Source: Cylindrodendrum hubeiense
Lineage: Eukaryota; Ascomycota; Sordariomycetes; Hypocreales; Nectriaceae
Reading direction: 5' to 3'
DNA: 64,000 nucleotides
NCBI GenBank assembly: GCA_014621425.1
Contig: JAANBB010000006.1
Location: 62,001 to 126,000 of the forward strand
Below, piece by piece: positions 5,926 through 55,358 of the stretch. The notes under the pieces were generated by a model, which saw nothing but the letters and a program-made list of their open reading frames with translations, was not told the DNA's origin and searched no databases. A program made the position numbers and the translations under genes. Position 1 is the first letter of the stretch; every line of letters begins with the position of its first letter.

Positions 5926-7578
5926 TTAAGGCTCTATTCTTTTAAACCAAGCGGTATCCGATGGCTCATACTCCCAGGAAAGTCCTTCAATTTTGCCCGC
6001 ATTATCTCGCTTGAACCGCAAAACGCCAACAAACCACTCATCCCAGTCAATCATCCCTTGACTCAACCAAGCATCTCTTGTAGTAGGTTGAAAGCTGAAC
6101 TGATCGCGATTAAAGAGTTCCAAGTCACACATCGTCGCAAGATTTGAGTTTAACATTAATGCCAAATGTCCAGTCTCCTTCCGTAAAATTATGTTCAACA
6201 TCGTGCTGTAGCCTTCGTAGTTTCCAACGTAATCTTCAAGATTAGCCTCTTCTTGTATTATATTGCGATGGGCAAGCCACTTATCAATAATGTCATTGTA
6301 CATCTTTTTGTGCAAATGAGCTTCTCTTTTGGCAAGCTCAAGGATGTCAACATGCGGTTGTAGGTCAAACAAGGCTTGAAGCATTATCTTAGCTGCAAAG
6401 TCGGCGGCATCCCCTAGGTTCATTCCATTAGCGAGCGCTATAACTCCGCTGTTTGTTTCAGGAAAAAGATATAGTGCAGACGCATAACCATTCATATTGC
6501 CGTTATGGCCAACAAAGAACTTTTTCTCTGAGTCCCGACCCAGGATGTATTTCATATTGTACTCAGGATCCTCTTCAGATGTTTTATGATTCACTCCCAT
6601 GTAGCCGAGGCCGACAGTCGGCAAGTAGCCACGATACCACCCTTTTCCATACGCAAAGTCGTCGTTGAAGTCGTCGTCGACGAGTCCAACCCACTCTGCT
6701 GACCATGCCTCATCAATATGTCGTAAGGGGTTTTCTGGGTGCAATGCTTCACCGTGAAGAGGCAAATATTGGTCTCCTTTCCCAGCAGCAAGAACCGCTT
6801 TGGACCATTTCAGCATGTCCCTGACTGAGCTCCGCATGCCCATTGCCGCCAGAATGGGAGTGTGATGACCAGTGGTGAAATTTGCCGTGTCAATCTTCGA
6901 ATAGTCTCCATTCTCAAGCTTTGCATAACCATGAGCTTGGTTAGAGATCTTGTCAACCTCTTCCTGGGAAACAGCAGTATCGTTCATACCAAGGGGATCG
7001 AGGATCCTGGCTCGCACGAAGTCAGAATATCTCTGGCCACTGGCCTCCTGAACTGCTAACCCCACTAGACCATATGTGAAGTTATTGTAGAGCCACCAGG
7101 AGTTGAACCTCTGGCCTTCTTCATTCTCGGTTGGCGAGTGATTGAGAAAATCCACGAACCCGTATTCCTCACTGGCCACAGAGCCGCGGGGGCCTAGTAA
7201 AAGGACTTGTGGGCGGCTCAGACCAATGGAATGAGCCAAGGCATGCCTAATCGTGGCCTCTTTGGCAATACGGTCGTTGCCCACGGGATTGAAGTTAGGT
7301 AGGTACTTCGTTACAAGATCGTCCCACTGCATCTTGCCATCACTGACAAGAATACCGATTGCTGCAGACAGGAACATTTTGGAGCAAGAACCGAGGAGGT
7401 ACGTCGATTCCCAAGTGGCAGAATACTCGTGTTCGACGTCACGAAGGCCGAAGCTTCTACTGAACACAGTTTCGCCATGGTGGAGTACTCCCACAGAAAT
7501 AGAGGGGACAGCACAAATCTCTCGAATTTGTTTAACATCGTTAAAGCCATCTTCTAGGCGTTTAGATAGTCTATCCAT
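5926..7578 (-). CDS. Beta-lactamase-family serine hydrolase
   Basis: A single-exon frame of 550 residues with the fold signature of class C beta-lactamase/penicillin-binding-protein-like hydrolases (PF00144). The SxxK nucleophile motif is SCSK at residues 64-67, the Tyr motif is YNN at 164-166, and the third motif is HNG at 358-360 in place of KTG, as is usual in the esterase/peptidase branch. A C-terminal extension of about 150 residues follows, as in many fungal members. No signal peptide, so probably cytosolic. Family members hydrolyse esters or amides or act as acyltransferases in secondary metabolism; the substrate here cannot be told. The start at 7578 is the first Met and lies just before the conserved N-terminal region. 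A 119-bp piece of this gene (6107-6225) is copied into the HET remnant at 1331-1449. Confidence 0.88.
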   Translation of the reverse strand: MDRLSKRLEDGFNDVKQIREICAVPSISVGVLHHGETVFSRSFGLRDVEHEYSATWESTYLLGSCSKMFLSAAIGILVSDGKMQWDDLVTKYLPNFNPVGNDRIAKEATIRHALAHSIGLSRPQVLLLGPRGSVASEEYGFVDFLNHSPTENEEGQRFNSWWLYNNFTYGLVGLAVQEASGQRYSDFVRARILDPLGMNDTAVSQEEVDKISNQAHGYAKLENGDYSKIDTANFTTGHHTPILAAMGMRSSVRDMLKWSKAVLAAGKGDQYLPLHGEALHPENPLRHIDEAWSAEWVGLVDDDFNDDFAYGKGWYRGYLPTVGLGYMGVNHKTSEEDPEYNMKYILGRDSEKKFFVGHNGNMNGYASALYLFPETNSGVIALANGMNLGDAADFAAKIMLQALFDLQPHVDILELAKREAHLHKKMYNDIIDKWLAHRNIIQEEANLEDYVGNYEGYSTMLNIILRKETGHLALMLNSNLATMCDLELFNRDQFSFQPTTRDAWLSQGMIDWDEWFVGVLRFKRDNAGKIEGLSWEYEPSDTAWFKRIEP

Positions 7579-22962: not shown

Positions 22963-24833
22963 ATGGAGGAGAAGACCACCAAGGCGGCTTCCGACTCGCA
23001 CCATATCGAGTCCAGCAGCGGCATTGACATTGCCGAAACCGAAGCTGTTATTCTCCAGAATGAGATCTTGACCGGCGAGAGAGAGCCATATGGAAAGGCT
23101 GGTATGTAAAACCCCATTATCCTGTGCATTGCCATCTCTTTGCTGACGCATGGAATTTGACAGGATTCGGCGGAATCTTTGGCAACAAATATGTCACCGT
23201 CTGTGCTGCATTTGCAACTATGGGCGGTGCCTTGTTCGGATACGATCAGGGTGTGGTCTCCGTGACGCTGGTCATGGATCAATTCCTCGAACAGTTCCCC
23301 GAAGTCGGCCCTGACGCTTCAGGAGCCGGCTTTCTCAAGGGACTCATGACGGCCATGATTGAGCTCGGTGCCTTTCTGGGCGCCATGAACCAGGGCTGGC
23401 TTGCCGACAAGATTTCCCGCAAGTGGTCCATCCTGGCTGCCGTCTTCATCTTCTTGTTTGGCTCTGCGCTGCAGACTGGCGCCATGAGCTTCGGCATGCT
23501 TGTCGCGGGTCGCTTCATCGGCGGCATTGGTGTTGGCATGCTTGCTATGGTCGCGCCCCTCTACATCTCAGAGATCGCGCCGCCTGAGATCCGAGGAACA
23601 CTTCTTGTGCTTCAGGAATTCTCTATCGTCACAGCCATCGTCATTGCGTTCTACACCACCTACGGCACGAGGCACATACAGAGCGAGTGGTCCTGGAGAC
23701 TTCCCTTCCTGCTCCAGGTATGTTTCGATATGCTCTTTACTATCTGCAGCCAGCTAACATTCTATCTAGATGGTGCCGGCTATTTTCCTTGGCATCGGAG
23801 TCCCGTTCCTCCCGTATTCCCCCCGCTGGCTCGCCTCCAAGGGCCGCGACGACGAGTCCCTCGAAGTCCTCTGCAAGCTCCGCAACCTGCCTGCGACCGA
23901 CGCCAGAATCCTGCGAGAGTGGTTCGAGATCCGATCCGAAGTCCGATACCGCAAGGAGGTCAATGTCGAACTACACCCTCACCTTCAGGATGGAAGCATG
24001 TTGAGCCGCGTCAGGCTGCAGATTGTCGGCTATCTCGACTGTTTCCGCAAGGGAGCCCGCGCGCGCACCCATGTTGGCATCGGACTGATGTTCTTCCAGC
24101 GTAGGTTTAAGAATCCCTCCTCGATTTGCACAGCTCGCTAATATGTGTCCCAGAGTTCGTTGGTATTAACGCTCTTATCTACTACTCCCCGACCCTGTTC
24201 AAGACCATGGGTCTCAGCTACCAGATGCAACTCGATATGTCGGGAGTATTGAACATTCTTCAAGTGGTTGCGTGCTCTTGGTCTCTCTGGGGCATGGATA
24301 GATTTGGCCGACGACCCCTGTTGCTGGGCGGAGCCGTTTGCATGACCACAGCCCATTTCGTCATTGCCATCCTCGTTGGCTTGTACCAGAACAGCTGGGA
24401 GTCCCACGCAACTGAGGCCTGGGTCTCGGTCGCATTCCTCTTCTTCTTCATGCTGACCTTTGGCGCAACCTGGGGCCCAATTCCCTGGGCGATGCCCGCC
24501 GAGATCTTCCCCTCGTCGCTGCGTGCCAAGGGAATGGCCTATGCCACCATGTCAAACTGGTTCAACAACTTCATCATCGGCCTCATTACGCCCCCTCTTA
24601 TCCAAAACACTGGCTTCGGAACCTATGTCTTCTTCTGCGTCTTCTGTCTCCTCGCCACTATCTGGGTCTGGTTTGTGGTCCCCGAAACCAACGGCCGTAC
24701 CCTGGAGCAGATGGACGAAGTCTTCAACGACAACAATGGCCAAGAGGAAGCCGTCCGCCGGGCTAGAATCGAGGGTGAAATGGAGGCTGAAATCTTCCAG
24801 AATGGCGAGCGAAAGATTGCTGGCGATGCTTGA
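22963..24833 (+). CDS. MFS sugar transporter (SP family)
   Basis: Four exons: 22963-23101, 23164-23717, 23770-24100 and 24154-24833 (introns 62, 52, 53 bp), giving 567 residues. After splicing the protein shows the sugar-porter signatures: GYDQGVVS in TM1, GRFIGGIGVGML before TM4, QQFVGINALIYYSPT in TM7 (restored exactly by the third splice), MDRFGRRPLLLGG, and PETNGRTLEQMDEVF after TM12. These mark proton-coupled hexose/disaccharide/polyol carriers of the plasma membrane; the exact sugar cannot be named. The N-terminal 46 residues are cytosolic and acidic. Upstream lie a TATA-like element and a CGG-N9-CCG palindrome. Confidence 0.92.
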
Positions 24834-25205: not shown

Positions 25206-26702
25206 ATGACAGAGTCTTCAATTGAGCCGCAGCGTCGCCCGTCGGCTACTCGTGATATCGGAGTGTCTTCTGGCCTGGAAGAAGAGGCAAATGACAGGCA
25301 TGAATTTTCACTGCCTAGGGTAGATGGCGGAAAAGATGCATGGCTTTTCCTCGCTGCTTGTTTCACAATTGAGGCCTTGACATGGGGTAAGATTTCCACC
25401 TCGCTAATACCGCTGCCTACAAGATCGGCCTTGAAGCTGACTGCCATATTCCTCTTTAGGCTTCCCGTTCGCCTTTGGAGTGTTTCAGGATTATTACAGC
25501 ACGCATGAGCCGTTTTCGGGGTCTTCCCAGATCGCCGTCATTGGTACGTGCGCCATGGTAAGCCGCCCGAAATTAAAATCTCCTGTCTTAAGCTGATGGA
25601 AGCGACCAAGGGAATCATGTATCTGGGCCTCCCATTTGTCATGCTCGTCCAGCGACTATATCCGAGGCAAACGAGGTGGTCCCCGATCGTGGGCCTCCTG
25701 ATCATGTGTGTGGCCCTTGCTGCGAGCTCCTTTTCGCAGAACACCACGCATCTCATCGTGACCCAGGGCGTTGTGTATGCCATCGGCGGGTCGATATCAT
25801 ACTGCCCTTGCATCTTGTACATGGACGAATGGTTTGTGAAGCGTAAAGGCTTCGCGTACGGCATCATGTGGTCTGGCACAGGATTGGCTGGCTTCGCCCT
25901 GCCATTGCTCTTCGAGGCCCTCCTAGGACGCTACGGCTTTCGCACTACCCTGCGGGTTTGGTCATTGGCTCTATTTATCCTGACCCTGCCGCTGGCCTAC
26001 TTCATCAAGCCGCGGCTACCGTATTCGGTGTCAAGGAACGTCAACCCGCTGAAGCTTAGCTTTACCTTCAGCCGCACCTTTATGCTGCACCAATCCGCCA
26101 ACATCTGCCAGTCGCTCGGCTTCTTCATGCCGAGCATCTATCTCCCGTCTTATGCACGCGCTGCTCTCGGAGCCAGCACGGTCAAGTCGGCGCTCACTGT
26201 CTTGCTGGTCAATGTCGCATCTGTCTTTGGTTGCGTGGCCATGGGGCTACTGACGGACAAGATCGACGTTACCACCTGTTTTATGCTGTCGGCGGTCGGT
26301 GCTGGCGTGAGTACCTTTTTCGTATGGGGATTCTCGTCCAGCCTTCCTGTTTTGTACATGTTCTGCATCGTGTACGGCTTCTTTGCCGGATCATACACCA
26401 CTGCATGGCCTGGAATCATGCGACAAATCACGTCCGGACAGGATTCACGAAGCGAAAACACGCGTACGGGAAGCGGCAGTTCGTTTGACCCCGCCATGGT
26501 GATGGGGATGCTGTCCGCGGGAAGAGGCATCGGGAATCTCGTATCGGGGCCGCTGAGTGCGGTGCTACTCCGGGGAATGCCGTGGCAGGGGCAAGCGGCC
26601 GGAGGTTATGGAACGGGCTATGGAACGCTGATCGTGTTTACGGGAACGACGGCCCTAGCCGGTGGGGCGACATATCTGTGGAGGAGAGTCGGTTGGATGT
26701 GA
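25206..26702 (+). CDS. MFS transporter, monocarboxylate-transporter-like
   Basis: Three exons: 25206-25386, 25460-25557 and 25611-26702 (introns 73 and 53 bp), giving 456 residues. A hydrophilic N-terminus of about 50 residues precedes a predicted 12-helix membrane region. Motifs fit the fungal MCT-like branch (TC 2.A.1.13): GFPFAFGVFQDYY in TM1-2, ILYMDEWFVKRKGFAYGIMWSGTG between TM4 and TM5 (conserved W-F-x-x-R-R-G-x-A-x-G pattern) and SAGRGIGNLVSGPLSA in TM11. Fungal members carry monocarboxylates, riboflavin or secondary metabolites; most are uncharacterised. Plasma-membrane location is expected. Confidence 0.87.
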
Positions 26703-30191: not shown

Positions 30192-33100
30192 CTAAGCCGT
30201 AGGGCAAGCCTTGGCACTCTTGCTCGTCTTGGTAACCCAAACGGTCGTCGAGGCTCCAACCTTGACGGTAGTCGTCTTGACAACCGTGGATTGCTGGGTG
30301 ACGGTGCTGCTAGGCTTGAGCGTAGTCTTGACAGTGGCCCAGTTGGTAACGGTGCTGGCTGGGAGAGTTGTCGTCTCAACAGAAGTCACCACCTTGGACT
30401 GGGTCACAGTTCCTGTTGACTGGTCGAGCACAGAGGTGATAACTCTGGTGGTCGTCTCCGCAGCAGTGACCGTGGAGGCAGGCAGAGTGGTTGTGGACTT
30501 GATGGTCTCCGTGGAGCTAGTCGCGGATGTGATGACAACCGTGGCAGCCTTCAGGGTCGTCGCCTTTCCAGTGGTCTTTGTGGTGACAGCTGTGATGGTC
30601 AAGGTGGAACCGGGGAGGGTCGTGGTCTGGAACTTGGTAGCCTCAGACACGCTGGTGACGACCGAGGTCGAAGCCTTGAGCGTAGTGGCCTTTCCAGTCG
30701 TCTTGGTGACAATCAAGCTGGTGGAGACAGTGGATCCTGCAATCACAATGGTTGAGGTCTTGACGGCAGTGGTGTAGACTGAAGACACAACGACAGTGAC
30801 GGTTTGAATACCGGCGGCGCGAGCCAACAGGACGCCAGCATTGTCGTCAGACCACACCATGCGAGGAGCCACCGTGGGCGCCGGGATGTCATCCAAAGAC
30901 CTCTTCTTGGCAGCGTTCGCAGGGATACAGCTGATGGTCGTCGTCTTTGAGGTGATCTTGGTGGAAGTGGTGTACACGGTGACATATGAGGTAGTGGCCT
31001 TGGCGGTAGTAGTCGTGACACCACCGGAGCCGGAGGTAATCGTAGTCGTGCTCTTGACGGTGACAGCCTTGGGAGAGGTTGTCTTAGTGCTCTGAACGGT
31101 GCTGCTGATAACCTGGGTGACGGTGGTGGCCTTGGGAGTGCTGGTAGTGTAGGCTGTCTGAGTCTGGGTAGTCTTGACAGTGGTAGCTTTGCCGGAAACG
31201 GTGGCAAAAGACGTGGTGAGAGCCTTGACAGTCGTCCATGAGGTCACACTCGTGGCATCAGGGGTGACGGTTGTGCCGATGTCGATGAGCTGCGTGGACT
31301 TGGCGGTAATCGTCTCATCTCCCTGTGTGATGGTTTGCGGGATGGTTGTGGTACTCTTGACAACAGTGGTGACCGTGGCCGCAGCAGGAGTGATGGTGGT
31401 TCCAACATCAACAACCAGAGTCGTCTGGATGGTGGTGGTTTGAACCGGGCCAGTTGTGGTGGTGGACAGCGTCTGCTTGAAGGTAGAGACGGTGGTGGTG
31501 AAGATGGTGGTGGTGCTAGGGACTGAAGACGTGGTGCTAGTCTTGGTGCTGGTCGCAGTGCTGGTAGCAGAGGAGACAGTGGAGACAGTAGCAGTGGTCT
31601 GAACGATAGCTGAAGCAACAAACGGCGTCGCGTAAACGAAGGTGCTGTTGATCCAGGCCGTGGCAGTGAAGAAGGTGCCTAGCTCGAACTGCGCGGCGCC
31701 AGTGGGAGTCAACTGCGTAGCGAACGTGGCTCGGCTCTTGGTCGACGCTCCAGGGCCGGAGTTGCCCAACTCACCGAAGATGACTCCATCAGTGCGAGGG
31801 TCGGTCTTGGTCCACATATCCCAACCAGCGGCCTCGATGAGAGAGCCGAGGTAGCTGCTGATGTAGGCAACGCGGGCATACTGGTTCCAGGGGCGACCCA
31901 GGGACACGGAGGTGTACGACGCACCGCTGGCAGCCTTGATGGTGCACTGATCGAAAACGAAACCGGCAGCGGTGGTGGCATCGGTGCGCTTGTGAGCAGT
32001 GATGTCAATACCATCTCGGTTGGTGGCAATGGTGGAGTTGAGGAAGTATCCAGCTCCAGATCCCCAAATCATGTCGATGTTGCCCTCGATGTACGAGTTG
32101 GAGGCGAACAAGTAACCGTTGATCAAGAGAGCATCCTGGTTTCCGTAAACCTGGCAGCCGTAGAGACCAGCGTACTTGCTGCTCTTGACACCGAAGCCCA
32201 GCGAGGCGTAGCTAGTTCACGGTTAGCATTAACTATAAAGGGGAGACGATGATTCTTACTTGGCGGCAGTGCCGTAGGTGTTGGCAAAGTTGATGTTGAC
32301 GGCCTGGAAGTAGTTTCCAGTAGCATACACAGTCGCAGAGTCCGAGTTGGAAGCATCAGCCTGGGTATCAATACCAGTGTTGTAGGTAATGATGACCTGG
32401 TTCTTGGTGTAATCCTTGGGGGAGTCTGAGTATCCGAGGAAGATAGTGGTGCCAGACTTGCTGAGGATCAGCTGCTCGGTGTATGTGCCGGGGTAGATGA
32501 AGACGGTGGACGTGATACTGCTTGAGGCGGGGAGAGCGTTCAAGGCTTCCTGGATCGTGCTGTAGGTAGTCTTGCCCTCAATGGCGGTCTTGGAAACGAG
32601 GAATGCTCCAGCGGGAGGAGTAGTGCCATCATAGGTAGTGGTGACTGGCGTAGTGATGACCGCAGCAGGCTGAGGGGTCTTGATATCATCCCAGTAGGTC
32701 ATGTCAATCCAGTCGGTGGTGTCCATGACAGTCGCCAAGGGGTACGTGTCGCTCGTGAGCAGAGTAGCAAAGCCAAAGTTTGTTCGGGCAACCGAGTTGT
32801 TGCCCCAGTTACCAGGACCATCGTTGTTGTACTCAGCAAAGGTGATGGCATCGGTTCGGGGATCGGTAGCCGACCAGATCTTCCATCCAGCGGGCTGGAT
32901 GATGCTGTCAAGGTAACTGTTCTTGACGACAACGACGGCGTACTTGGAGTAGGGACGGCCGATGAACACGGAGTCGGTCAGATCGACGGTGGCGCTGGAG
33001 GCGGCGGTGAACAGGCACTGATCGAAGATGTATCCACCAATGGCAGTGGCAGTGGTGCGGCTCTGAGCCGTAATGGCAGAGGACTTGCGCTTGGCACCGA

Positions 33101-36100
33101 TGGTACATCCCTTGAAGTACGACTTGGAGTAACCCCAGATGAAATCGATGGCACCCTCGATGTAGCAGCTCTCGTAGTACTGGTATCCAGCAGTGGCACC
33201 AGTGAGCAGAGTATCCTGCCAGCCGATCATAGAGCAGCCGTAGAATCCAATCTTGTTGCCGTAGATGCTGGCGGCGAGGGTAACGTAGTTAGCCGTAGCG
33301 CCATCCAGGTTCTCCGAGTTGATGAGGTCAATGTTGTACATTGAGATCTTGGTGCTGCCGGTCGCGATGGTGGCTGTCTCAGCGTTGCTGTGGCCCACGG
33401 GGAGCGGGCTGACGGACAAGCCCTTGGCCTGGGTGATGATGACCTGGTTGGTGGTATACGTCTTTCCAGGGGCGCTCTCGGTGTATCCAATGATCATGAC
33501 GGGACCGCTGCGGCTGATGGAAGGCACCTGCTCGTTGTAGGTACCAGCGTACATGAAGATGACTTGAGTAGACGAGTCCGCGGGAAGGCTCGCGAGAGCG
33601 GCGGTGAGGCTGCTGTACGAACCCTCAACGCTAGCACCGACGGAGACGAGAACGGCGCCGGCAGGGGGCTCAGTGCCGCTGGTAGGGTGAGCCCACTGAG
33701 CGGCAGTGGTGGTGGTGGTAGCCGCAGGAGCAGCGTCGGTAGTCTTCGTCCAGGTGTAGCTGGGCACGTACTCGTACGCAGTCATGTCGAGCCAGCTGGT
33801 GCTTCCAATGAAGGTAGCCAGAGAGTAGGCAGTGGCCTGAGACTCGGTGAGGCTAGTCGCGAAGGATGCACGAGAGCTGGTCCAGTTACCAGGTCCGGTG
33901 TTGTTGAACTCACCAAAGAGGACATTCTAATAAAGTTAGCGAGCATTCAAAAATAACTGGGCATGATACTTACGCCAGTGCGGGCATCGCTCGTCGACCA
34001 AGTGGCCCATCCCGCGGAGGAGATGTGCTTGTCCAAGTACGAGTTCATGTAGACGACAATAGCGTACTGCGACCACGGTCGACCGAGCGAGGTGGAGCCG
34101 AAAGTGCTGCCATAGCTCGACGTGTAGGTGATGAGAGAGTTGTCGAAGACGAAACCACCGGCCCAAGCGGCGGTGGGACGGTTCTGCGCAGTGATGTAGG
34201 CGTTGGCAGTGTTGGAGGCAATGATACATTGGTGGAAGTAAGCCTTGCTGTAACCCCAAATGAAATCGACGCTACCCTCAATGTACGAGTTACTGAAGAC
34301 CTGAACACCCTGGTTGACCAAAAGACTGTCCTGGAATCCCTTGAAGGCACATCCGTAAGCAGCCATGTTGGTGCCGTAGAAGTCAGCGGCCAGAGAGGCG
34401 TAGCTGTTGGTCTGAGGGAAGCTGTTGGTGAAGTTCAGGTTGTACAAGGCCAAGCCTTCGCCATTGGTGTTCTTCCAGTTGATGACCGGAGTCAGCTCAT
34501 TCTGGTTGGAGCTAGTAGAGACTCCGTAGCTGAACTTAATCAAGACAGTGTTGCCAGTGAAATCATTGGTGAAGGAGCTCTCTCCTCGAAGGGTAACCTT
34601 GCCTCGGCGAGTGAGGGCAAGCTGCTCCTCATAGGTACCAGCCAAAATGTAGATGGTGTAGTCCTTTCCATCAGCGGGAAGAGCCGCAATGGCTGACGAG
34701 ACCGTTCCATATTGAGAGCCGGTAGGGGTGGGGGCAACAGTGAGGGTAGATCCAGCAGCGGTGGAAGTGGAAGAAGCGGAAGTCGTCGTGGACGCGGCAG
34801 ACGTGGACGCGGCAGAGGTGGTCACAGACGTGGTAGTGGTAGTGACGGTGCTGACGTACACGGAGTCGGGCCAACCGGAGAAGGGAACGATGGCAGCTGA
34901 GTCGAGGAAGGCATCATCACCGAGGACGTTCTTCACGTTGTATGCAGAGCTGTCAGAAAGGATCTGGGCATATGATGAACGAGAAGTCGTAACGGAGCCG
35001 GGGCCAGTGTTGTTCGCCTCAACAAAAGTACCAACAAAGGTCGAGGGAAGGCTGACCAACCAACCAGCAGCAGCGATATGAGCATCCAGGTACGAGTTGA
35101 CAAAGGCGACGTTGGAGAGAGTGTTGTAATCTCGGCCAAGGTAGGTGCTCTTCTGGGGGACTGAACTGCTTCCTGGCACCACAGCGCAGAGATCGAAGAC
35201 AAACTTGGAGTTGCCATATGATGCCTGGTACTTCTGCGCGGCAATGGTCTGACCAGTGGTGGTTGCATCAGACTCGATGATCGAGTTGTAGAAGTAACCA
35301 GCTCCCTGGCCCCAGATGAAGTCGGTTGTACCAGAGATGCGACCACCGCTGAAGTAGACGGCGCCGTAGTCGAGGTACAGCGATCCCTGAGAGGAGTCGA
35401 TGTTGCAGCTGTAGAAAGCAACCTTTCCACCCTTGGAGTACACAGCGATGGCGATGTAGTTGGTTTGCGCAGGGTAGCTGTTGACGAAGTTGATGTTGTA
35501 GAATGCCGCCAGCTTCGTCTCGTACTTGCTCTGGCTGAAAGTGGCCGTAAGGCTGGAGCTTCCAGCGCTTGAGGCACGGCCATAGCTGTTCGTGATGGTG
35601 ACCTTGTTGGCAGAGGACGACGAAGAGTCGGAGGTCTCACCGCGGAAGACGACGGAGCCCGCTCGGGTAATGATGGGTTGCTCGTTGTACGTGCCAGCCA
35701 GGATGTAAATGTACTGGGTGTTGGTGATGTCGGCAGGCAGGGCAGCGATGGCAGCAGCGATGCTGGTGTACTGGGAGCACGCGTTGGTCGCGGGACCGAC
35801 AATCAGAGCGGTGCTGGGCATGGACGAGGGCAAGCAAGAAGCGACGCTTGCAGCGGTTGTCGTAGTGCTGACAGCGGACGAAGATGAAGCGACTGTGGAC
35901 GAAGACGTAGTGACGGTCGACGAAGACGAAATGTCAGAAGACGAAGACGAAGCGGCCGTGGACGACGAAGCGACGGTGGAGGACGACGAAATGTCAGTGG
36001 ACGAAGACGAAGCGACTGTGGACGACGAAGCGACGGTGGACGAAGACGAAATGTCGGACGACGAAGACGAAGCAACCGTGGACGAAGACGAAATGACCGT

Positions 36101-38956
36101 GGACAACGTGGTGCTGGTAGAAGACGTAGACGCCGAGCTCGAAGTCGTCGAGGAGCTGGTAGACGCAGTATCCGCGGCGTTGCTGGCCCGGATGGCGCTC
36201 AGCACATCCGCGTCAATCCAGTTGAGGTTGGCGGCCTGGACAGTAGGGTAGACCTTTGTGAAAAAGGTGCCAATGTCGTAGTTGGAGAGGCCAGAGGCGT
36301 CGGAAATCAAGGTGACGTAGAGTGCTCGCGCGGCAACGTTCGAGGCGTAGCTTCCAGTGCCAGTGTTACGGTACTCGTAGTACTGGTTCAGGTTCGGTGT
36401 ACCTTGCGTGACGGTATCAACGTGGGCACCAGACGCAGCGAGGAGCGATCCCAGGGCGCTGCTTCGGAATAAAGCAACTGATCCAGGCTGGTTGGCAGCG
36501 AAAAGGTAGACGTTCTTGTTGGTAGTGCCATCCTTCTGGACCACCTTGCAGCTATCAAACACGGTTGTTGAGTTGTAGAGGATACCGCTTGTGGAGCCGG
36601 CGGTGTACGTCAACAAAGCATTGTTGTTCGTGGCGGTGATAGTTGAACCGAAGACGTACAGAGAGGGGGACTTGTAAAAGACCTTGTCTTGCGCCTCGAT
36701 GTAGGAGTTGGCGATGATTCCAGAGGATACACTTCCAGTGATGGCGACTTGTCCAGCGGAGACAAAGCTGCAGCCATAGAAGGCATTCTTAGATCCCTTG
36801 AGGGAGACAGCACCGTTGCTCGAGCCAACCAGAGCGTTGACAAAGTTGATGTTTCGCCAGGTGATGCCGTTCGTGGCGACGCCCAGGCTCAGGGGCAGGG
36901 TGGCGCCTCCGCCGTTGGTGATGACGACCTTGTTGGAGTCCCACGCATTGGAATCTCGCTTCTTGGTGCTGGTCGTTGCGCCAACGATTGTCACGGTGGC
37001 TGTGGCAGCGACGGAAACCGCCTCGGTGTACGTGCCGGCAAGAACGGTGACTGTGGGGATCGCGTTCGCCTGGGCGTATGAAATGGCCGAGTTGATGGCT
37101 GTGTAGTCTCCAGTTCCATCAGCGGCGACAGTCACGGCTAAATGTTGGTTAGTTGATGTCTGCGAAGTTTGAGATGAAGACGAAGATGAAGTGAGTGAAG
37201 TGACAGTGGTGGAGGAAAAGATAGTGGAGGAAAGCTCTGTGGAGGACGAGGCAGTCGAGGACGAGGCGGCAGAAGAGACGGTCGAGGACAAGGCGGTGGT
37301 CAAGTCCGTCGAGGAAGGAATTGACTCTTCGCTGAGTCCAGTAGTTGATCCCGCAGTCTCGCTCGTGGTGTCCAAGAATGAAGTAGACGTCTCATCTTCG
37401 AGTCCGGTGGTTGATCCTGGAGTCTCAATAGGAGTGGCAAAGTACGAAGTAGACGTCTCATCCTCGAACCCGGGAGTCGATCCTGGCGTCTCGCCCGGAG
37501 TGAAAAAGGATGAAGTAGGAGTCTCAATTTCGATTCCGGGAGTTGACCCTGGCGTATTGATTGGAGTGGCAGAATACGACGGAGTTGTCTCGGCCTGGAA
37601 GTCCGAGCCTGGGGTGGAAACAGACGCAGAACGAATGCCCGGTGTGTCGGTCGGAGTAACAAAAGAAAGAGGCGTCTCAGACTGGATTCCAGCACCTGGG
37701 GTTGAGAAAGACGCGGAGTTTATCTCTGGTGTGCCGCTCGGTGTGGCGAACTGCGACGAAGGCGTCTCAGACTGGAAGCCGGAACCGGGAGTAGAGGCAG
37801 ACCCAGAGTCGACCCCTGGCGTGTCACTCGGAGCAGCATATGAATAAGTCGTCTCCGAGAAGAATCCAAAATCCGAGGTTGAGTAAGAGTCGGAGATAAT
37901 CTCGGATGCGTCGCTCGATGTGACGAACTGCGACGAGGTCGTCTCCGTCTCAGACTGAAATCCGGAACCGGGGGTAGACGCAGACGCGGAGTTAAACCCT
38001 GGGGTGCCACTCAGAGTGCCATATGAAGAAGCCTGGGAGGCTTGGGATTCATAACCCGGGGTAGACTCGGCGCTGTTCACACTCGATGTGCCGCTGGTGT
38101 AGCCGGGTTCCGTTGAGAAACCAGGCGTGGCTCCGGGCGCATATTCGGTGTGAGCTGCGGAACCCGTGGGTGTCGATGTGCCGGGAGTAATCGCTTCGCT
38201 TGATGATTCATAGTCGCCTTCAACATACTTGTAAAGAGTGAGAAGTATGTTGTTGGAGATTTCGTCTCGAGGACCAAGGAGTTGATTTCGCTCAGATCGT
38301 CGTGCTGGTGCAGTGGAGCCTGAGCGTGTTCCGCCACAAAAGTTTCCTTCATCTCCAGGACACGGGATATCGCACCGCGCGTCTTGCAGGAAAGCAGTAG
38401 ACGTCAAGGAATCCGCGGCATAGCAGGAGCTTTCGTAAATGCCGACGTACAGCCGTCCAACGGCAAGGGCTAGACATTCGGCGGTTGTCACATCAGAACC
38501 ACTGGCAATCAACTCGAAGGTTGGGTAACCTTGTTCGGAGCCTAGGCATCCGATGTAGACGTATTGGCCAGTGGCGGGACTGCTCGACGGGGCTTCTGAA
38601 GTTGCCGAGAGTGGGGTGGCGACGGTATTCCAGGTAGGAGTTCCAGAGATAGAAGGTGTTCCAATCGATCCAGATAGTGTTGGAGTGGTATCGGATCCTG
38701 GGGTCGAATTCGTTGATTCGATCAAAGAGTGTGGGCTGGAGGAGGCCAGTTCCTGGGAGAGCGGGGTGGACGCGGACTCTGCAACGAGTGACGCCGTGGC
38801 AGAGGGGGCAGTGAAAGAGAAAAGAGTGGAAGGGTTCTTGGCACGGCAAGCAGAGGGGGGATCACGACGAGAAAGAGAGACGAGCGCACCTGTTTGAGCG
38901 TGAACAGAGCTCCCGGCGCAGAGGCCGAGTAGCATCCATCGCGAAATCTTGGCCAT
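30192..38956 (-). CDS. Giant secreted protein: WSC domain plus five pectin methylesterase domains
   Basis: Three exons (33974-38956, 32260-33926, 30192-32211; introns 47 and 48 bp) join in frame to 2889 residues. In order: signal peptide (MAKISRWMLLGLCAGSSVHA); WSC carbohydrate-binding domain at ~131-212 (YIGCLG to NFCGG); Ser/Thr/Pro-rich TPG repeats ~255-600; PME1 ~605-920; Ser linker; PME2 ~1040-1365; PME3 ~1405-1710; PME4 ~1748-2073; PME5 ~2098-2411; Thr-rich tail to 2889 with a KKR site. PMEs remove methyl esters from pectin by QD, D and R residues. PME3 (FQDSLL, DFIWG, LGRPW), PME4 (WQDTLL, DFIWG, IGRPY) and PME5 (NQDALL, DMIWG, LGRPW) keep the set. PME2 has QG for QD and LGRDY; PME1 has GQV and no LGRPW, so both look inactive. 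Ordinary fungal PMEs are ~330 residues with one domain. The start is the Met opening the signal peptide; an upstream in-frame Met at 39154 adds no plausible sequence. Confidence 0.88.
35878..36105 (-). repeat. 60-bp minisatellite in the Ser-rich linker
   Basis: Nearly four units with an exact 60-bp period (unit starts near 35881, 35941, 36001, 36061) encode SSSDISSSSTVASSSTVASS-type peptide between PME1 and PME2. Such units commonly vary in copy number between strains. Confidence 0.85.
37320..38160 (-). repeat. Degenerate TPG-rich repeat, about 90-96 bp
   Basis: The encoded peptide repeats a 30-32-residue pattern anchored by STPGSGFQSETP, SGTPEINSAS and DTPGIRSAS variants. It forms the spacer between the WSC domain and PME1 and is probably O-glycosylated. 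Confidence 0.75.
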
Positions 38957-53252: not shown

Positions 53253-55358
53253 ATGAAGCTTGTGGACAAAGTTACCTCGGATCTTAGAACCGACGTAACC
53301 TGGAACCGGGCTGCCCGCCTGGGAGCCGCTGGTGCCAGGGCGCTACCGTCTGCCTCCGTGCAATATGCCAGCGACAAATTCCCCATCATCGGATGGATTC
53401 CAAGATACAACTTCAGATGGATTCTCAACGACGTGATTGCTGGGTTGACCATTGGTCTCATGCTCATTCCACAAGGTCTTTCTTATGCGAAGATTGCTGA
53501 AATTCCTGTCGAGTATGGGCTCATGTCCAGTTGGTTGCCTGCTGCCATCTACGCTTTCATGGGAACTACCAAGGGTACGAATTTGTCCATCAACCTTGAT
53601 TGAAAGGGATGAAGCTGACTTATGCTATTAGATGTATCGACCGGACCAACTTCGCTTATCGGCCTCCTCACATCCGAGAACGTACATGCTTTACAAGACC
53701 GATGGACCCCCTCCGAGATTGCTTCAGCGACAGCCTTCATGATGGGAGTCTACGGCATGGCACTGGGGTTCCTCAAACTCGGCTTTTTGCTGGAGTTTAT
53801 TTCTCTGCCCGTTCTCAGTGGCTTCATCACTGCCATTGCCATCACTATCATCTTGAACCAGATGGATAATCTCCTTGGCGAAAACAACGTTGGTGATGGA
53901 GCGGCCACACAGATCCACGACATCTTCAACCAACTCCCAAATGCCAACGGTTGGGCATGCCTCATCGGCTTCACGGGAATCCTCTTCTTGACCATCCTCG
54001 ACAAGTCGGGAAAGAGATGGGGAAAGAAGTACAAGATCGTCTGGCTCTTGTCAATTACTAGAGCCTTCTTGACTCTTGTTTTATTCACTGGAGTCAGCTA
54101 TGCCGTCAACAAAAACCGGGAGAACTATCTCTTCGAGGTCGTTGAGGTTCACGCCGACGGCCAGGAAGCCCCGAAGATGCCAAGGACCGATCTCATCCCC
54201 GAGGTTGCGGGTCGCAGTATAGCTGTCTTCATAGGCGCAGCGGTAGAGCATACAGCCATTTGTCGCGCATTCGCTGTGAAAAACGACTACACCACGGATC
54301 AGAGCCAAGAACTTTGTTACTTTGGAGTAACCAACTTCTTCAACAGCTTCTTCCATGCCATGGGTGTTGGTGGTGCCATGTCTCGCACAGCGGTCAATTC
54401 TTCCTGCAACGTCAAGTCCCCTCTTTCTGGCCTTATAACCATGGCCACTATTCTCATTTGCGTTTACGAGCTGGTTGGAACGCTGTACTGGATTCCCAAG
54501 GCGACTTTGGCAGCTATCATCATCACGGCCGTCTGGGGACTGATTTCTCCACCGTCAACCTTTTACAGGTACTGGAAGACGTCACTGGCCGATTTCATCT
54601 CGTCCATGCTTGCGCTTTGGATAACTCTATTTGTTTCCTCCGAGGTTGGCATTGGCTGTGCGGTTGGCTTCAACATTGTATATGTGCTACTGCGTCAACT
54701 CTTTACTCAGTTGTCGTCAACAGGCGGCGGTATCCAGACAGGATCTGAACTAGCACATGCTCTGAACGAGGCGCGTTCAATGCCGCCCAATTTGCCTGCA
54801 GACACCCGGATTTTCCGATTCAACGAGTCGCTATTCTTCCCCAACGCTTTTAGCAACACCAATGCGGCCTTGGATGATATCCAGACGTTTCATTCACCCG
54901 TGTATAATGGCAGCCATGGTCCTGAAACGGAACGAAACTGGTCTGTCGTGGGCGAGAAGAGAGTCGCTCGGCTACGCAAGAAGGCAGGAATTCACGACCC
55001 TTCGACATTGCCTGCTATCGGCCTCGTCGTGTTGGACTTTGGCCGCGTCAATCACATTGACAGTACTGCGGTAACCCATTTGAAGAACCTGGCCGGCAGT
55101 ATCAAGAAGTACGGAGGCAAGGAGGTCGAAATTCGCTTTGTAGGGATGACTCCATATGTTCGTGAGCGTTTCGAAAGGGCCCAGTGGCACATTATCGAGA
55201 CAGGCGACGAATATGGGGATTATGATGATGATAACAAGCCTACGGTACTGTACCGAGATTTGCTAAGCGCCGTAAGGGCTCCAAGAGGGGCGGACTCGAT
55301 GACTAGTGACAGCGCCCTGAAGCCACATGCGGAGCACTACGAGAAGGAAGAAGCTTGA
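53253..55358 (+). CDS. SulP-family anion (sulfate) transporter with STAS domain
   Basis: Two exons, 53253-53574 and 53632-55358 (intron 57 bp), giving 682 residues. The SulP signature spans the splice: GLMSSWLPAAIYAFMGTTKDVSTGPTS. About ten to twelve transmembrane segments follow, including GFITAIAITIILNQ, and a C-terminal STAS domain at ~550-650 (VVLDFGRVNHIDSTAV, VEIRFVGMTPYVRERF). Family members carry sulfate and other divalent anions; several SLC26/SulP proteins exchange oxalate or formate. The usual fungal assignment is sulfate permease. Being next to oxdC and DUF1275 raises oxalate or formate transport as an alternative, not shown by sequence. Plasma-membrane location is expected. Confidence 0.92.

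Follow-up and report, generated by a model that had tools for sequence, protein, structure and literature searches.

The pattern of pectin demethylation affects the stiffening or breakdown of plant walls. According to the accessible text of PMC12109409, CE8 enzymes have a conserved triad of two catalytic Asp and one Arg, and one of them, PmeC5 of Butyrivibrio fibrisolvens, is a large secreted multi-domain protein (2089 aa) in which one CE8 catalytic domain is combined with a PL9 lyase and adhesin-like domains. WSC domains are described in the accessible text of PMC9024836 as having eight Cys in four disulphides, and SiWsc3, a protein with WSC units, is described there as binding beta-1,3-glucan.

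Here we analyse a window of 64,000 nucleotides from Cylindrodendrum hubeiense (contig JAANBB010000006.1, positions 62,001 to 126,000; coordinates below are those of the window), in which a single predicted gene joins a WSC domain to a chain of five pectin methylesterase (PME) modules. The C. hubeiense protein appears to belong to a widespread ascomycete family of giant CE8 proteins that look secreted, and to be a member that carries a WSC domain.

Gene model and domain layout

The gene occupies 30192..38956 on the minus strand, and its joined coding sequence of 8670 nt encodes 2889 aa with a single terminal stop. Exon 1 (33974..38956, aa 1–1661), exon 2 (32260..33926) and exon 3 (30192..32211, stop included) are separated by introns of 47 nt (33927..33973, GTAAGT...TTATTAG) and 48 nt (32212..32259, GTAAGA...GAACTAG), all on the minus strand. 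All splice sites are predicted; both introns have a GTAAG donor, a CTAAC branch-like motif and a TAG acceptor. They lie inside PME modules 3 and 5, which are whole only once the predicted introns are removed. The initial annotation had joined the three exons in frame into one gene, and with these predicted splice sites that model holds, the sole stop standing at its end.

From the N-terminus, the protein consists of a signal-peptide-like segment (aa 1–20, 38897..38956; end set by eye, best hydrophobic 10-mer 1.75 on the Kyte-Doolittle scale), a WSC core (aa 133–210, 38327..38560; aa 130–245 with its extension), a TPG/Ser/Thr-rich region (aa 246–604, 37145..38221), five PME modules and a Thr-rich tail (aa 2415–2889, 30195..31619), all on the minus strand. 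The modules span aa 605–926 (36179..37144), 1048–1362 (34871..35815), 1403–1720 (33750..34750), 1751–2077 (32679..33659) and 2101–2414 (31620..32609), also on the minus strand. By profile envelopes, the linkers between them measure 121, 38, 31 and 20 aa and the tail 473 aa. Tandem repeats of 18 to 60 bases occupy 35872–36104, in the Ser-rich linker between modules 1 and 2, and further repeats lie in the TPG region at 37334–37552 and 37700–38031.

Given singly, module segments 1–5 score 30.2, 104.6, 144.6, 138.6 and 144.5 bits against PF01095 (Pfam cut-off 27), so that module 1 passes by only about 3 bits. Although marginal by Pfam, its assignment as a PME module is also supported because its structure model (pTM 0.76, mean pLDDT 63.6; built from an alignment of six pieces of the protein) matches PME structures: the best PDB match is the Aspergillus niger PME 5c1c (E 5.8e-9), and all 14 PDB matches at E ≤ 0.001, 2nsp among these, are PMEs or YbhC. 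With the WSC domain and all five segments above cut-off, the Pfam content is as anticipated, PF01822 once and PF01095 five times, and the secreted-looking layout with Ser/Thr-rich linkers that had been read from the DNA is borne out.

A Pfam scan of ten flanking frames, from the 31 listed at ≥180 aa, revealed no pectin gene among the ten. They encode two MFS proteins, a sulfate permease, an ABC ATPase domain, a cupin, a beta-lactamase-fold protein, a flavin monooxygenase-like protein, a sub-threshold DUF218 match and two products without a match. The MFS transporter frames lie at 23064–24101 and 25509–26699 (plus strand), the first being sugar-transporter-like; the sulfate permease, which has a STAS domain, lies at 53619–55355 (plus strand) and the beta-lactamase-fold protein (PF00144) at 5929–7578 (minus strand).

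A five-module family across filamentous ascomycetes

A homologue search with residues 1400–1661 scored 4784 candidates and returned 326 proteins at E ≤ 0.001, of which the best 120 were examined. Counted with a profile built from the protein's own five modules, exactly five module hits are present in 102 of these best 120 of 326, as in the C. hubeiense protein. The other 18 comprise 13 with four hits, three with six, one with seven and one with three; in some of them the protein is plainly short or a hit is split. The top match, from Dactylonectria macrodidyma, reaches 91 per cent over the query stretch. Organisms named among the best 120 of 326 include Fusarium, Colletotrichum, Verticillium, Hypoxylon, Cytospora, Aspergillus, Diplodia, Paraphaeosphaeria, Phialocephala and Oculimacula, which we take to span four classes of filamentous ascomycetes. 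Because 102 of the 120 have five modules, the chain is widespread and common in filamentous ascomycetes, and a unique five-module layout is ruled out. The initial annotation had named a layout both common and already characterised as a refutation, and the first half of this applies. As to the second, we found neither a description nor a characterization of a five-module PME in the open-licence literature (PMC) searched; a passing mention there or in subscription journals may exist.

We reconstructed a FastTree phylogeny from the modules of 23 full chains, chosen for spread, and six single-module PMEs. Each module position forms its own clade (supports 1.0, 0.998, 1.0, 0.951 and 0.999), and the positions group as (1,2) with support 0.976, (1,2,3) with 0.784 and (1,2,3,4) with 1.0. 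Judged by these clades, the C. hubeiense protein is a family member, its five modules each being orthologous by position. The nested order is consistent with modules having been duplicated step by step towards the N-terminus before the sampled lineages diverged, although long-branch attraction may be what pairs modules 1 and 2. The chain modules do not form one clade relative to all single-module PMEs, but group with two genes of the same genome, on C101 and C35 (support 0.873). These (L017, C101:125000–127000; L018, C35:162200–164200) are single-module CE8 genes of another type, in which AHA replaces QAV and DFLYG replaces DFIFG; comparing their approximate joined frames gives 62 per cent identity between the two.

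Catalytic residues

For residue counts we retained 93 full chains, namely 92 of the 120 homologues plus the C. hubeiense protein, each with exactly five hits of ≥230 aa (28 homologues were dropped), and aligned all of their modules with the A. niger PME. In modules 3, 4 and 5 the QD pair and the second Asp occur in all 93 chains, and the Arg in 93, 92 and 93, respectively. In C. hubeiense the corresponding residues are Q1542, D1543, D1564 and R1626 in module 3, Q1898, D1899, D1922 and R1985 in module 4, and Q2242, D2243, D2263 and R2323 in module 5. Module 2 has Gly at the first Asp in 93/93 (G1191), the second Asp in 91/93 (D1212; Glu in 2) and the Arg in 92/93 (R1275). The Asp missing here is presumably D178 of the 2nsp structure. 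Module 1 lacks all three catalytic residues, with Lys at the second Asp in 93/93 (K758) and Arg in 0/93 (Ala in 77).

The two Asp and the Arg of CE8 are thus found together in modules 3, 4 and 5, and not in modules 1 and 2. Since only modules 3–5 keep the catalytic residues, the five chained esterases of the initial annotation reduce to three candidates; five active esterases are ruled out by the fixed Gly of module 2 and Lys of module 1 (93/93 each). Modules 1 and 2 are better described as sequence relatives of CE8 than presumed to be active enzymes. Their replacements, being fixed in all 93 chains, look unlike the result of free decay. Columns with ≥95 per cent identity across the 93 chains number 36/324, 69/314, 108/320, 142/330 and 106/316 in modules 1–5; module 1 is the fastest-changing, a pattern that weak constraint would explain as well as a binding role would.

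The Gln of the QAVAL motif was found in none of the five modules in the counts from the 93-chain alignment, in which an indel lies nearby and the exact register is unsure. In its column module 1 has a gap, and nearly all entries of the other modules are Asn, Ser, Asp or Gly. The A. niger PME has this Gln, as do three of the single-module PMEs encoded in the same genome; the C101 and C35 genes lack it. Because it is missing from all five modules, catalysis by modules 3–5 is likely, not certain.

The C-terminal tail

The tail measures 405–570 aa in the 93 full chains; 90 of the tails contain two Cys and the other 3 a single one. In 85/93 the first tail Cys is followed by a dibasic pair no more than 25 aa away, against a background of 0.027 per 25 aa in the rest of the tails. 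Among the eight chains that lack the pair are three Colletotrichum proteins, which have ER in its position. The pattern [KR]-x-A-x-x-C is found at the C-terminus in 81/93. The C. hubeiense tail has both Cys and the dibasic site: the conserved cassette ISCIPANAAKKR (30900..30935, minus strand) contains Cys 2645 and the basic residues 2652–2654, and the C-terminus, ending TSKSAKACPTA (30195..30239, minus strand), contains Cys 2886. A genome search with 340 aa of the tail, in which 16 candidates were scored, matched only this gene, and a surface tail common to other genes of the genome was therefore rejected.

Wall anchoring had been suggested from the sequence. By a simple hydropathy test, a hydrophobic GPI-like end above 1.8 is found in 0/93 full chains, the best 12-mer of the C. 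hubeiense protein reaching 0.875. On this test we reject a GPI anchor, so that wall anchoring, if there is any, would have to depend on the WSC domain or the tail.

The WSC domain and the N-terminal stretch

The WSC domain passes the PF01822 cut-off of 27.8 narrowly, scoring 27.9 bits within the complete exon 1 and 34.3 bits when submitted alone. This call, marginal by Pfam, is also supported because paralogues sit in the same genome. The best sequence match among solved structures is yeast Wsc1, at a non-significant E of 0.27, and the structure model (mean pLDDT 46.5) is too poor to use. The domain has six Cys rather than eight, and the six match three of the four Wsc1 disulphides; the missing pair corresponds to C53–C71 of yeast Wsc1 (pairing according to the accessible text of PMC9024836). 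By eye, the same pair is lost in the five WSC units of P0122, a Hypoxylon protein, and in five of the seven nearest paralogues of the same genome; given this common loss, the domain looks like a three-bridge subtype.

A phmmer search with the C. hubeiense WSC domain found no WSC in the 120 homologues (best 120 of 326), and a WSC profile of which that domain is a part gave ≤2.6 bits in P0001–P0121 and five hits in P0122. None of the 195 candidates of a WSC-directed database search, which covered proteins of about 913 to 2907 aa sharing exact words, reached E ≤ 0.001. A search with the N-terminal stretch scored 7986 candidates, drawn by words from the Ser/Thr-rich part, and returned two hits, P0121 and P0122. 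Given no case among the 120 homologues (best of 326), in P0121 or in the WSC-directed search, the fusion of WSC and PME looks rare.

P0121 has the signal peptide, an SRRxPPSACRAK stretch and TPG repeats in common with the C. hubeiense protein, and no WSC domain was found in it; the stretch after the signal peptide is partly common to Neonectria too. The first 600 aa hold 17 TPG in the C. hubeiense protein, 7 in P0121 and 0 or 1 in P0001, P0002, P0014, P0026 and P0054. The frame of P0121 reads through the intron 1 site, so this sequence seems to derive from DNA that was not spliced; it stops at that point, in module 3. In the annotated homologue P0001 the signal peptide is joined directly to module 1. 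Since predicted introns may have removed N-terminal stretches from annotated homologues, the absence of a WSC domain is weaker evidence in them than in P0121. Identity to the C. hubeiense modules is 73.5 per cent in P0121 versus 65.6 per cent in P0001 for module 1, 78.0 versus 83.1 for module 2, and 91.7 versus 90.5 for module 3. As P0121 is closer in modules 1 and 3 and not in module 2, more than one branching order would fit, and with it either gain of the WSC domain in this lineage or its loss elsewhere. GC3 over aa 21–604 is 0.48–0.56, versus 0.67–0.76 in the modules, linker 1 and tail, and the WSC domain looks like a late arrival in this lineage.

Queried with the WSC module, the genome yielded 17 matches, which fall at nine contig places, this gene being one of the nine. 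In seven of the other eight (C486, C146, C101, C350, C288, C70 and C40) the match breaks just before a CYA/CYC motif, and spliced alignment predicts a phase-2 GT-AG intron at the break in six of these seven paralogues (L028, 59 nt; L029, 52; L030, 55; L031, 57; L032, 58; L034, 50). For the seventh, L033, five candidate introns were predicted, of which those of 54 and 48 nt start at the shared site in phase 2. The copy on C486 is the nearest, 56–61 per cent identical and with an extension ending ILLTLYK in common. The eighth place, C601, is only 25 per cent identical and uninterrupted, as are other WSC matches of the same genome. The PME-fused WSC domain of C. hubeiense has no intron at the site where its seven nearest copies have a predicted one; in view of C601 and the other uninterrupted copies, an intron-less WSC domain is odd only among its nearest kin and not in itself. 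The pattern fits capture via an RNA copy or later precise loss of the intron. L028 (C486:3000–8000) and L029–L034 are a family of WSC-bearing genes, in which L032 and L034 keep the Cys pair lost in the other five; the L028 product has, by eye, a hydrophobic, GPI-like C-terminal stretch.

Proposed working and alternative explanations

As one explanation of these features, we propose a five-module CE8 chain in which modules 3–5 demethylate pectin, modules 1 and 2 hold the polymer, the tail is processed and the WSC domain tethers the protein. Judged from sequence, we consider this on balance probable. Modules 3–5, with their kept catalytic residues, would demethylate homogalacturonan, and modules 1 and 2 would be retained sugar-binding grooves that grip the polymer without turnover. 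The long Ser/Thr-rich linkers would give the modules access to neighbouring parts of a single chain, and several active sites there would provide avidity, not necessarily processivity; the processive machine of the initial annotation was overstated, as nothing tested speaks for processivity. We would guess that a kexin-type protease may cut the tail after its first Cys and, again as a guess, that the two tail Cys possibly hold the cut pieces together through a disulphide. In this lineage the WSC domain may keep the enzyme at the hyphal surface or wall. Single WSC units of SiWsc3 are without an obvious pocket in the accessible text of PMC9024836, so the lone WSC domain here may not bind glycan.

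The protein could instead be a structural or adhesive glycoprotein whose modules act mainly as rods adhering to plant pectin, with little or no esterase activity. The missing QAVAL Gln in all five modules, the loss of the catalytic set in modules 1 and 2 and the long Ser/Thr-rich regions would agree with such rods, but the Asp, Asp and Arg of modules 3–5 are kept in the 93 chains with one exception, and these are the best conserved modules, where drift would be expected if catalysis were unimportant; we regard this explanation as unlikely. The chain could also be a precursor that kexin-type proteases cut into separate enzymes, its length reflecting mere co-production of three esterases. Sites of the form [KR]R do occur before the WSC domain (30–31), after its core (219–220) and in the tail (2653–2654), the tail site being present in 85/93 chains, and KR at 666–667 (36956–36961) falls in module 1, within whose residues 50–110 a site is found in 49/93 chains. 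The four inter-module linkers of the C. hubeiense protein, however, have no [KR]R, and the remaining sites (1450, 1940 and 2291) fall inside modules 3, 4 and 5, which makes release of separate enzymes improbable.

A different kind of doubt concerns the WSC and TPG stretch, which could be an unspliced or misassembled insert and not part of the mature protein, as might be read from the WSC domain not found in the 120 homologues (best 120 of 326) or P0121, from the lower GC3 over aa 21–604 (0.48–0.56 versus 0.67–0.76) and from annotated homologues such as P0001 that join the signal peptide straight to module 1. Yet the coding frame over these 584 codons has 0 stops (the other five frames have 10, 17, 24, 14 and 25), the stretch after the signal peptide is common to P0121 and partly to Neonectria, all six Cys of a three-bridge WSC domain are present, and the intron required, about 1.7 kb long, would dwarf those of 47 and 48 nt in this gene. 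An insert is very improbable.

The demethylating chain with polymer-holding modules is the reading that we prefer, and it can be sharpened into a bolder version that we put forward as doubtful. Modules 1 and 2 would be pectin-binding pseudoenzymes, module 2, with its first Asp lost, holding esterified pectin and module 1, with its Lys groove, the de-esterified product, so that both feed and grip one chain for the three active modules, an arrangement kept across the broad range of filamentous ascomycetes sampled; the WSC domain, from an intron-less, RNA-derived copy of a cell-surface gene, would pin the machine to the hypha.

Comparison with known systems

With three esterase modules that look active and two that look inactive in a fixed way, such a conserved chain would be well suited to asking whether linked active sites give blockwise patterns, and the WSC domain, present here and not found in relatives, offers a natural comparison for the effect of tethering. 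Many database entries named "pectinesterase" or hypothetical are very large multi-module proteins, in which not all modules should be expected to be active.

The five-module ascomycete pectinesterases, such as P0001 of Dactylonectria macrodidyma, P0054 of Fusarium oxysporum and P0041 of Aspergillus coremiiformis, share module number, order, loss pattern and tail type with the C. hubeiense protein, and unlike in the latter, no WSC domain was found in them. The A. niger PME (CE8, PDB 5c1c/5c1e) has the QD, D[FYM]I[FW]G and GRP[WY] motifs in common with modules 3–5, but is a single module and has the QAVAL Gln, which is absent in the aligned five-module proteins. PmeC5 is likewise large, secreted and multi-domain, and differs in being bacterial and in its single CE8 domain (accessible text of PMC12109409). 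Yeast Wsc1 and SiWsc3 are alike to the C. hubeiense protein in the WSC profile match and the six Cys of three bridges (accessible text of PMC9024836); the WSC domain is joined to a transmembrane segment in yeast Wsc1 and to further WSC units in SiWsc3, whereas here it is joined to PME modules.
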